From Spirochaetia bacterium (GTDB lineage: Bacteria > Spirochaetota > Spirochaetia > Treponematales > Treponemataceae), in the NCBI GenBank assembly GCA_022773305.1, contig JALFAW010000088.1:1-55735 (forward strand): DNA of 55,735 nucleotides, in the 5' to 3' direction. Below, piece by piece: positions 6,566 to 55,735 of this stretch. The stretch's first letter is position 1. Every line of letters starts with the position of its first letter. The position numbers and the translations under genes are program-made. Under the pieces are notes generated by a model. It was not told the origin of the DNA. It did no database searches and saw only the letters and a list, made by a program, of their open reading frames with translations.

Positions 6566-6721
6566 CTGTCCCCTCCCGTGAACGAATTTGTTAAAAATCT
6601 AACCGCTTATACAGATAATTTTTAAACAACAATTTTAATAATTATATCATAGAAAAAAAGAATTGACAATTAAAAAGTGGCTACTTTAAAAATAATAATG
6701 AGACAAAAAAAATTATTAATC

Positions 6722-6861
6722 AGGTTCAATTTCGAGTATTTGATTTACAAACCGTGGCAAGGATTGTAAGGGCTGGCGAAGCCAGTTCCGAAGCGGAGCG
6801 AAGGAATGAAGCGATAGCGGAACCCTGAAAAGCCTGTTTTTTGCGAAGCAAAAAGCCACCC
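6722..6861 (+). repeat. Dispersed modular hairpin repeat, copy R1 (between fliE and fliF)
   Basis: AGGTTCAATTTCGAGTATTTGATTTACAAACCGTGGCAAGGATTG...GCCTGTTTTTTGCGAAGCAAAAAGCCACCC; contains CTGGC-GAA-GCCAG and TTTTTTGC-GAA-GCAAAAA; left end identical to copy at 55568. Confidence 0.9.
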
Positions 6862-6949
6862 TAAAAAATAAAAATTCAAAATTCGACATTTGTCCAATCA
6901 AATTGATGATCTTTAATTTTTTCTTAAGCTTAAAGTGATTTTGATTATT

Positions 6950-23939: not shown

Positions 23940-24083
23940 GGGTGGCTTTTTGCTTCGCAAAAAACAGGCTATCCGGGGTTTCGCTATCGCTCCAGCCGCT
24001 TCCCTCGCTCCGCTCAGTCCAGTGGCCGCCTTCGGCGCCCCTACTATCCTTGCCACGGTTTAAAACCAAAAACTCGAAATAAA
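23940..24083 (-). repeat. Dispersed modular hairpin repeat, copy R2 (between ftsA and ftsZ)
   Basis: GGGTGGCTTTTTGCTTCGCAAAAAACAGGC...CGCC-TTC-GGCG...CCTTGCCACGGTTT; reverse orientation relative to R1. Confidence 0.9.
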
Positions 24084-30457: not shown

Positions 30458-30600
30458 GAGTGGCTTTTTGCTTCACAAAAATCAGGCTTTGCGCCCTTCG
30501 CTAACGCTCATCCGCTTCCCTCGCTACGCTCAGTCCAGTGGACTGCTTCGCAGGGGCTACAATCCTTGCCACGGTTTAAAATTAAAAAACTTGAAATAAA
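30458..30600 (-). repeat. Dispersed modular hairpin repeat, copy R3 (between mraZ and rsmH)
   Basis: GAGTGGCTTTTTGCTTCACAAAAATCAGGC...CTGCTTCGCAGGGGCTACAATCCTTGCCACGGTTTAAA; nearly identical interior to copy at 47641. Confidence 0.9.
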
Positions 30601-31915: not shown

Positions 31916-31924
31916 TTTTAAAAC

Positions 31925-31963
31925 CCTTGCCACGGTTTGTAAATCAAATACTCGAAATTGAAC
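31925..31963 (-). repeat. Solo conserved end of the modular hairpin repeat, copy R6
   Basis: CCTTGCCACGGTTTGTAAATCAAATACTCGAAATTGAAC = reverse complement of the left ends of R1 and R5; no modules follow. Confidence 0.8.
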
Positions 31964-31992
31964 AAAATAATTATTTTAATCAAAAAAGAAAA

Positions 31993-47640: not shown

Positions 47641-47766
47641 TGTTTAAACCGTGGCAAGGATAGTAGCCCCTGCGAAGCAGTCCACTGGACTGAGCGAAGC
47701 GAGGGAAGCGGATGAGCGTTAGCGAAGGGCGAATAGCCTGTTTTTTGCGGAGCAAAAAGCCACCCA
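47641..47766 (+). repeat. Dispersed modular hairpin repeat, copy R4
   Basis: AAACCGTGGCAAGGATAGTAGCCCCTGCGAAGCAGTCC...GCCTGTTTTTTGCGGAGCAAAAAGCCACCC. Confidence 0.9.
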
Positions 47767-52719: not shown

Positions 52720-52748
52720 TTGACATTTTATGATTAAATGGTTAAATA
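52720..52748 (+). promoter_or_regulatory. Candidate promoter for parA operon
   Basis: TTGACA (52720-52725), 17-bp spacer, TAAATA (52743-52748). Confidence 0.4.
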
Positions 52749-52782
52749 TGTATTAAACCTAAAAACAATCAAGGAGGCAAAC

Positions 52783-53526
52783 GTGAAATCTTATGCATTT
52801 GCTTTGCAAAAAGGCGGAACTGGAAAAACAAGCATCAGTGTATCACTTGCTGTTGAACTTGCTTCAAAAGGAAAAAAAGTTGTATACATCGACTGCGATC
52901 CTCAGGGAAATTCCAGTTCATGGCTTTTAAACAGTTTTGAACATGAATTGGCTGATATACTTTATGAAAAAGCGCAGGTTTTAGAATGTGTTTATAAATC
53001 AGATGTTGAAAATCTTTATGTAATTCCAACTTTTGGTGTCGGAGGTGAACTAAAAGTCTGGGCAAAAAAAGAAACATATCCTTTTATTTTCCAAAAAAAC
53101 ATTCTCCCTCAGCTTCAAGAACATTTTGACTATTGTATTTTTGATACATCACCTGCTTTTGATGAATTTGAAAAATCAGTTTTTATTGGTTGTGATGAAG
53201 TAGTTCCAGTTTTGAAATTGGATGAATTTTCAAAAGACGGATGGGAAATTTTTACAAAAAATCTTTCTCAAATTGACAAACAATATGGTGTACGTCCTAA
53301 ATATAAAAAAATCATTTTAAATCAGCAGGATAAACGTCTTTCAAATCAAGCTGCATATCTTGAAGCATATAATTCATCTGAAACTTCATTTGAATTTATT
53401 GTAATTCCAAAAGACCCTGCATTTGAAAAAAGTCAAAGTGCGCACACAACTATTCAGGATAAAAGAGTTCGTGCAAAAAAAGAAACTCTAGAATCTATAT
53501 CAAATTTAGCACAGAGGTTAATGTAA
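52783..53526 (+). CDS. parA: ParA-family partition ATPase
   Basis: AFALQKGGTGKTSISVSLAVELASKGKKVVYIDCDPQGNSSSWL deviant Walker A; AAGGAGG upstream of GTG 52783 (listed ORF starts earlier at 52738). Confidence 0.9.
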   Translation: MKSYAFALQKGGTGKTSISVSLAVELASKGKKVVYIDCDPQGNSSSWLLNSFEHELADILYEKAQVLECVYKSDVENLYVIPTFGVGGELKVWAKKETYPFIFQKNILPQLQEHFDYCIFDTSPAFDEFEKSVFIGCDEVVPVLKLDEFSKDGWEIFTKNLSQIDKQYGVRPKYKKIILNQQDKRLSNQAAYLEAYNSSETSFEFIVIPKDPAFEKSQSAHTTIQDKRVRAKKETLESISNLAQRLM

Positions 53527-53882
53527 TGGCAGTACACGAAAAAAACTTATCATTTGCTGAAGAACAAAAGTTGAAAATTGCGGAAAGCGTAAAAAATACT
53601 ACAAGTCTATCTGAAAGTGTAATTCCGGAAAAGAAAGTTGAAGATAACTTGTCTTTCAAAACTGTAACTATTCAATCTTCTGTATCACAGAATTCCAGAA
53701 AAAAAGATGTATTGATTGGAATTCATGTTACAAAAGAAGAACAAACAGAGCTTCGTCAAATGTTTTGCTCAAATGGTTTTTCTCTTGCTACTGCATATAG
53801 AGCAGCAATGACTTATTTGAGACAAGATATTAGTGATGGAAAAGCAATAATTACAAACAATGGTGAAATCTTAAGAAAATAA
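53526..53882 (+). CDS. Small partition/plasmid-associated protein, RHH-like C-terminus
   Basis: ATG overlaps parA stop (TAATG); C-terminal IGIHVTKEEQTELRQMFCSNGFSLATAYRAAMTYLRQ; contains an iteron in its coding sequence. Confidence 0.7.
   Translation: MAVHEKNLSFAEEQKLKIAESVKNTTSLSESVIPEKKVEDNLSFKTVTIQSSVSQNSRKKDVLIGIHVTKEEQTELRQMFCSNGFSLATAYRAAMTYLRQDISDGKAIITNNGEILRK
53654..53670 (+). repeat. Iteron copy inside a CDS
   Basis: TTTCAAAACTGTAACTA exact match to the flanking iterons. Confidence 0.9.
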
Positions 53883-54044
53883 AAAAATCCTTACAAACTT
53901 AAAAATAATGGATATTTTGAAGAAGACGACATATTTCTCGATGGATATCGTTTCAAGCCCGTAGAACCCCTTTTTTGAGCATTTGAGAGGACTTTTTCTT
54001 ATTACCAGAATTTTCAAAAGTTTTTCCTCATAAAGGAGGGTATA

Positions 54045-55034
54045 GTGAAAAAAAACAAAAAAGACCAGAAAAATGAAATAATCTCAGCAGATAATTCTGA
54101 TGCAGAATTATTCAATTTTGATTATAAGCCTGATATAAAACAGTCATTAGCTTATTTGCCAGCTCTTTTTACAACAGCTTCTTTACCTTTCAGAAATGTA
54201 AATAAAACTGTATTTGTACGAAAAGGCACAAAAGGAATTACATTAAAACTTACATCGCCTTTTAATGTACCTTATGGACGTTATGGAAGATTACTTTTAA
54301 GTGTTTTAACTACACATGCAGTAATTAATAAAGGAAAAGGTTCTGGACCTGTGTATATGGAATATGCAAAACTTAGCGATTTATTAAAAGAATTACAATT
54401 ACCAAAAAGTAGAGGACCTGAAATCAAAGAACAACTTGAATGCTTTTCAAACGCAGCATTTTCTTTTACACAAAAGGTTACAGAATTGAAAGCGGGATAT
54501 CTTTTTGAAGATTTATATGATGGAAATTATCCAAAACAAGATATACAAGTAACAACACATACTACCGGAAATATTCGTTTCACAGAAGGAGTTCAATATA
54601 AAGAAGCTGATGATGGAAGTGGTGATAAAAAAAGTTTTGCTTTTAAAATAGTTTTATCACCAGAGTTTGCAGCATTTTGTCAATCTCACGCAGTTCCTAT
54701 AAATTATACAGTTTACAAAAATATATCTTCTCCAATTGCAAAAGATATTTATGCTTGGCTTGTGTACAGAAATAATTCAATAACAGAACCGTTGTTTATT
54801 CCAAGACATCATCTTGTTGAACAATTTAATCCTGTAGATGATGCAAAAAACGAAAATCAGGAGAATGTAAGTTATTTTAGAATAATCGAATATATTAAAG
54901 AAATAAAAGAAAAGCATTATCCTGAATTAAAGGTAAGTTTTGATAAAACAGGGGAGGGGATTACTCTTTATAAAAGTAAACCTCCTGTTCTAGAAAAAGA
55001 TACAAGATATGCATTAATAACAACTGATATTTAA
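54045..55034 (+). CDS. Plasmid-type replication initiator (RepA, 'plasmid encoded RepA' family-like)
   Basis: GTG start after AAAGGAGGG; PYGRYGRLLLSVLTTHAVINKGKGSGPVYMEYAKLSDLLKELQL and SPIAKDIYAWLVYRNN patterns; flanked by iterons. Confidence 0.8.
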   Translation: MKKNKKDQKNEIISADNSDAELFNFDYKPDIKQSLAYLPALFTTASLPFRNVNKTVFVRKGTKGITLKLTSPFNVPYGRYGRLLLSVLTTHAVINKGKGSGPVYMEYAKLSDLLKELQLPKSRGPEIKEQLECFSNAAFSFTQKVTELKAGYLFEDLYDGNYPKQDIQVTTHTTGNIRFTEGVQYKEADDGSGDKKSFAFKIVLSPEFAAFCQSHAVPINYTVYKNISSPIAKDIYAWLVYRNNSITEPLFIPRHHLVEQFNPVDDAKNENQENVSYFRIIEYIKEIKEKHYPELKVSFDKTGEGITLYKSKPPVLEKDTRYALITTDI

Positions 55035-55304: not shown

Positions 55305-55567
55305 CTATTTCAAAAGTGTAACTATTTTAAGAATAAATTTAAGAATAAAAAACTCATAATCTGAATTTCTATAATACTTTAGTTCAGAAAAATTTGAATA
55401 TGATTTCGAATATTGGGAATCATATCAGAAAAAATATAAAAATAATAAAAAGAAGATAATGTTATTTCAAAACTGTAACTAAAAAAAAGCAAACAAACAG
55501 ATTTCCATTTCAAAACTGTAACTATTTATGTTTATTAAAAAATATGTTTTATTTCAAAAGTGTAACT

Positions 55568-55735
55568 AGGTTCAATTTCGAGTATTTGATTTACAAACCG
55601 TGGCAAGGATTGTAAGGGCTGGCGAAGCCAGTTCCGAAGCGGAGCGAAGGAATGAAGGTAGCACGAAGTGCGTACGTAACCCTGAAAAGCGCGAGTTTGC
55701 AATGCAAACTCGGGACGAGAAATGCATAGCATTTC
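55568..55735 (+). repeat. Dispersed modular hairpin repeat, copy R5 (truncated by window end)
   Basis: Left end and first modules identical to R1, then different modules: GCAC-GAA-GTGC, CGAGTTTGC-AAT-GCAAACTCG, GAAATGC-ATA-GCATTTC. Confidence 0.9.

Follow-up and report, generated by a model that had tools for sequence, protein, structure and literature searches.

The repeat studied here is, on balance, best read as an old, structure-conserved DNA repeat of the Treponematales that became the cargo of an IS982-type MITE in one Treponema lineage. Its MITE layer is of a known kind; its multibranched, DNA-type core, found across the order, is new, and may represent an undescribed mobile element acting as folded DNA. 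A further possibility, which we regard as doubtful, is a new class of bacterial mobile repeat whose recognition and propagation depend on folding as single-stranded DNA. Such an element would have a multibranched fold, a conserved internal loop as recognition site, and arms that are swapped or extended at the tip, and its enzyme would be neither a Y1 transposase nor an integron integrase.

The source genome (G000) is an uncultured Treponema MAG of 3.1 Mb in 321 contigs, and the whole stretch of 55,735 nucleotides analysed from it (the window) carries five copies of the core (R1 to R5) and one left-end fragment (R6). Sequence and a covariance model (E-values 2e-29 to 4e-13) place R1 to R5 where the initial annotation had put them. 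Its limits for R1, 6722-6861, gave the end of the core correctly, but the full element is longer. R1 is a complete MITE-like copy of 173 bp on the plus strand at 6723-6895, with the terminal repeats GGTTCAATTTCGAGT and ATTCGACATTTGTCC and flanked by the target duplication AATCA at 6718-6722 on the left and 6896-6900 on the right. Its structured core occupies 6752-6861 on the plus strand (130 bits, E 1.8e-29), as indicated also by folds and covariation, and fliF and fliE lie on either side. On the minus strand, the R2 core (23940-24058; 93.2 bits) lies between ftsA and ftsZ and the R3 core (30458-30574; 73.6 bits) between mraZ and rsmH/mraW, the neighbours being identified by Pfam; R6 (31920-31964, also minus) is a truncated copy limited to the left terminal repeat and the first bases of the core, recognised from direct and inverted repeats and a motif scan. 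The R4 core (47649-47765, plus strand; 80.4 bits) lacks recognisable IS982-like ends and has GCCC/GGGC as its P3 stem, a full compensatory variant also present in R3. R5 (55569-55735, plus strand; 62.5 bits over 55598-55718) has the left terminal repeat and a long-P7 variant, and is interrupted by the end of the contig. Near that end, at 52738-55034 and 55437-55560, are genes of ParA-like and RepA_C (plasmid replication) type and, after them, repeated ATTTCAAAACTGTAACTA units; the units resemble plasmid iterons, and the rest of the contig is rich in chromosomal genes.

Across the whole genome the pattern AACCGTGGCAAGG, with one mismatch allowed, has 251 matches, against 1 for the reversed control pattern. 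Such control patterns rule out a chance origin of the repeat; the copy number in G000 is about 250. Several contig ends in this assembly fall inside the repeat. The detailed study of copies covered 565 kb of G000 and 398 kb of a second genome, G155.

All copies studied across the order share one architecture. The small hairpins listed in the initial annotation proved to be parts of a single fold closed by P1-P3; this fold, its order-wide distribution, and the MITE ends and duplications go beyond what had been recognised there. The core is roughly 110 bases long and runs from P1 through a single conserved unpaired A, P2, an internal loop and P3 to a multiloop with P4-P6, followed by P7, which adjoins the 3' strand of P1. 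In R1, on the plus strand, these elements are P1 (6754-6758/6855-6859), P2 (6760-6762/6833-6835), the internal loop (6763-6768/6827-6832), P3 (6769-6772/6823-6826), P4 (6773-6785, loop GAA), P5 (6786-6806, apex loop GGA), P6 (6811-6818, loop GATA) and P7 (6838-6854, loop GAA). P1 is GTGGC/GCCAC in the window and GCGGC/GCCGC, GCGAC/GTCGC, GCGCA/TGCGC or GCGTT/AACGC elsewhere; P2 varies as AGG/CCT, GGG/CCC and GCG/CGC; and P3 is either GGGG/CCCC or GCCC/GGGC. The internal loop is conserved as ATTGNA/GAAAAG and has a compensated pair of its own in ATAGTA/GAATAG. When folded as DNA the plus strand was more stable than the minus strand for 18 of 18 cores.

Evidence for covariation in the stems of the core, as the initial annotation would require, is overwhelming. 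For 15 diverse cores aligned with MAFFT, an alignment not fitted to structure, standard pairs fill 99.4% of the cells of P1-P3 and P7, and 12 of 21 pairs have changed on both sides, compared with 3.6 in shuffles (0/500); with shifted partners pairing falls to 40-64%. Among 105 copies aligned to the covariance model, 96.4% of cells are paired, pairing drops to about 40% with shifted partners, and both partners have changed in 841 cells, where shuffles give 194 (0/500), although these copies are related and the cell counts are not independent events. The larger alignment leans towards the covariance model; the MAFFT alignment agrees with it. A two-sided paired pattern with P1 and P2 left free gave 155 matches in 1.56 Mb and 0 in the reversed sequence.

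By DNA similarity the core is present in 89 of 147 genomes of the genus, and by covariance model in 11/11 well-assembled ones, at 2 to at least 128 copies each. In a sample of the order it was found in 35 of 121 genomes and 13 of 55 genera, and one core lies on the T. bryantii plasmid pTB1. Copies without IS982-like ends are found through most of the genus and recur in other genera and families, complete genomes included; the core is older than the MITE layer. A pattern scan located its near relatives in uncultured Treponema MAGs, while scattered pattern matches in Paraburkholderia and Nitrospinota records were not model matches. No phage matched, and four pattern matches in viral contigs fail the covariance model. 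Within 1.56 Mb there was no convincing case of an element enclosing a gene of its own, and most distant half-matches there are explained by neighbouring copies.

The family also appears to be undescribed, as the initial annotation had supposed. Rfam has no gathering match in the window and nothing meaningful for nine core-bearing loci, relaxed thresholds included, and a literature search, with subscription papers mostly outside its coverage, found no paper describing the repeat. Structured intergenic repeats are common; it is unusual for one to have a multibranched fold that is kept across an order almost free of wobbles and with loops of DNA type. This offers a direct way to ask whether complex folding can be selected in DNA and not in RNA.

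The features that bear most directly on this distinction are the wobble pairs and the loops. G.U is normally tolerated in RNA stems; in a DNA stem G.T and A.C should be equally acceptable. Of 2110 pair cells in the core, 28 are G.T (1.3%) and 14 are A.C, a slight excess of G.T (p = 0.04), the corresponding counts for G155 alone being 15 and 11. A small control set of fourteen tRNAs from the same loci, located with finders that admit G.T and not A.C, gave G.T in 31 of 316 pairs (9.8%). Loops of the types cGNAg and cGNNAg are exceptionally stable in DNA. Of the 72 P4 triloops 54 are GNA, each of the four bases occurring in the middle position, and the closing pair is C-G in 63/63 of the P4 GNA/GNNA loops. 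P6 has GNNA in 61 of 77 tetraloops, and its GNA/GNNA loops are closed by C-G in 60/62; the third base of the tetraloops is T in 30, A in 22, G in 5 and C in 4, so that these are not GNRA loops, T being at least as frequent as A. The GNA rule of the initial annotation holds far above chance among distinct G000 copies for the main types of P4 (47/49) and P5 (47/50) and for short P7 loops (54/56), where exceptions are mostly ANA and never TNC. It fails for the alternative long P7, whose loops are ANT, ATA or TAT. The ATA/TAT hairpin of the long P7 occurs in both orientations in G000, which shows that flipping is possible, yet flipping is unseen for GNA.

A structured RNA, either a small RNA or an mRNA element, would account for the core through selection on the transcript, with dispersal incidental. 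Functional RNAs, too, combine a single conserved multibranched fold with unpaired positions that do not vary (here the A after P1, and ATTGNA/GAAAAG), and the small surplus of G.T over A.C points the same way. Against this, tRNAs of the same loci have several times the frequency of wobble pairs, the P6 loops are GNNA and not GNRA, some genomes hold more than 100 copies with arms swapped, Rfam has no counterpart, and orientation shows no preference relative to neighbouring genes (in G155 both the same in 21 cases, both opposite in 17 and mixed in 17). We consider the RNA explanation unlikely. The rarity of wobbles and the loop types favour constraint at the DNA level, as the initial annotation had suspected, and folding as DNA is the best reading of them; this is an argument about constraint and not a proof of single-stranded DNA in the cell. 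The slight G.T excess may leave room for some RNA-level role.

Copies are nearly always intergenic, in both orientations. Where they seem to lie inside ORFs of G155 the ORF starts are probably over-extended, since in the two cases examined the domain of the protein starts only after the repeat. This setting, together with strand-specific loops, recalls REP, BIME and REPIN repeats, and a RAYT (Y1 HUH transposase) could move a REP/REPIN-like element through the hairpins that single-stranded DNA forms. A GNAG-like motif precedes the P3 stem, and close pairs of cores in G155 (n = 8) are inverted like REP doublets, with 7 head-to-head, 1 tail-to-tail and none in the same direction. The unit, on the other hand, is about three times the length of a REP and differs in fold, being a multibranched structure of some 110 nt with P1-P3 and a conserved internal loop. 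The initial annotation had looked to a linked RAYT or IS200-type transposase, but a Y1_Tnp search of G155, the genome richest in copies (at least 128), found none. The same Pfam model, which a divergent HUH enzyme could escape, had no match in 15 of the 22 genomes searched. Movement by a RAYT thus seems most improbable.

Many copies in the G000 lineage are MITEs of IS982 type, a conclusion that is well supported. Within the 565 kb of G000, both ends could be located for 40 copies, which start with GGTTCAATTTCGAGT and finish with ACTCGACATTTGTCC, an imperfect inverted repeat. Perfect 5-bp flanking duplications accompany 22 of the 40, where 5.7 are expected and 500 re-pairings of left and right flanks gave at most 11. 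The duplications are AT-rich (TAATA, TATTA) and their signal is confined to the exact element boundary. A possible empty site was seen at L048:2468 in the comparison of L048 with L115, although the match is approximate, at one site, with flanks 84-92% identical. The 5-bp AT-rich duplication also prompted us to consider a Tn3-family TIME, which was rejected as Tn3 transposase was found in 0 of 10 genomes.

A search with DDE_Tnp_1 returned fragments with ends like GCCTGAATTTCGAGTTT, and a protein search of 201 genomes identified a longer IS982 ORF in G205, with ends related but not identical to those of the MITE. NCBIfam transpos_IS982 identifies the G205 protein as a transposase of the IS982 family (168.8 bits, cutoff 130). 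A GGTC-type IS982 subgroup (L187, L182, L180) starts with GGTCAAATTTCGAGTTT, and its left ends agree with the MITE ends at 14-15 of 17 positions; other IS982 copies have 10-14 of 17 bases identical. As the MITE ends match IS982-family ends of the genus, an IS982-type transposase probably moves these recent copies. In G000 only remnants were seen, with no intact IS982 copy having matching ends; an intact partner may be missing from the assembly because G000 is a fragmented MAG. An IS with the exact left end GGTTCAATTTCGAG and without the core was likewise absent from eight genomes, where this end occurs only together with the core. The duplication is 5 bp for the MITE versus about 6 bp for several IS982 copies. 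Six loci (L044, L055, L056, L063, L068 and L122) have an extra hairpin-containing block, ACGTCGAGTCAAGGC...CCCCCTCAA, between the core and the right end. In G137, a near-perfect palindrome of about 40 bp with IS982-like ends, CCTAATTTCGAGTT...AACTCGAAATTAGG (L145:2505-2556), is perhaps a minimal MITE. At L146 (G000:C177) a core fragment and an IS982 remnant have an IS200-type transposase gene as their neighbour.

The ends, the duplications and the IS982 relatives might suggest an ordinary IS982-derived MITE whose hairpin-rich interior is without significance. There is precedent in Cardinium, where MITECca01 is an IS982-family MITE deriving from its IS (PMC9769881). The present element resembles it in being short, lacking a transposase, having ends that match an IS982-family IS, and occurring in many near-identical copies, but its interior shows no relation to the IS and consists of the conserved structured core, which occurs order-wide without the IS. 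The same core in other genera and families without these ends, stems that covary far above chance, and a paired pattern with zero background, which speaks against chance matches across the order, make a meaningless interior very unlikely. Correia, ERIC and NEMIS-type repeats are single long palindromes or simple inverted-repeat units. They too are intergenic, MITE-like, hairpin-forming and present in many copies; here, in contrast, several hairpins are nested in one covarying fold spanning an order. The clear IS982-type MITE is in itself an addition for spirochaetes.

Under the reading that we favour, of an old DNA-level core carried as MITE cargo, an IS982-family transposase would act in trans to move recent copies by cut-and-paste. 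The core would be kept foldable at the DNA level, probably through being exposed during replication as single-stranded DNA or a cruciform. Correction templated by the hairpins, exchange, and insertion at their tips could then keep both arms matched and shuffle the modules, with arms corrected or exchanged through template switching at hairpins. A rough look at listed positions in three complete genomes, with origins assumed, gave no consistent trend in replication-strand bias. Hairpin modules differ at orthologous sites, as in R2 versus L113 and, by a short or long P7, in L046 versus L114 and L048 versus L115. At L067:13480-13760 the apex of P5 carries about 164 bp of inserted sequence, missing from L091, which suggests that hairpin tips are insertion sites. 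These orthologous sites come from short-read MAGs, and assembly effects could explain part of the differences; similar module diversity is seen inside the ten-contig genome G155. Such a natural series of arm changes at fixed sites bears on how bacteria keep and diversify inverted repeats.

In attC sites the folded form is conserved over sequence, with an extrahelical base and a central unpaired loop. An attC-like integron recombination site, formed when single-stranded DNA folds, would share with the core a conserved fold of similar outline (an extrahelical A in the stem, a central loop that is symmetrical and unpaired, and a terminal structure that varies) and the clustering of copies in one region of T. 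denticola-like genomes, but is scarcely credible given that the aligned consensus lacks RYYYAAC/GTTRRRY (R and L) boxes, that P7 is an extra hairpin interrupting the closing stem, that copies are dispersed in both orientations with no cassette arrays, and that the T. denticola-like clusters sit among Rhs genes.

In those T. denticola-like genomes the clustered cores share a region with repeated genes (L293-L295 in G262 and L296 in G211), and Rhs-core domains were identified in the three ORFs tested in L293 and the one tested in L295. In G155, a related unit, GCGNNAGGG-TCTACTTGTAGCCCC-...-GCCTGCGAGCTTA, stands in front of many cores (for example at L284, L290 and L291). An alternative upstream feature in the same genome is a GTCGCAC...GTGCGAC hairpin that overlaps the 5' strand of P1, with which it may form an alternative pairing.
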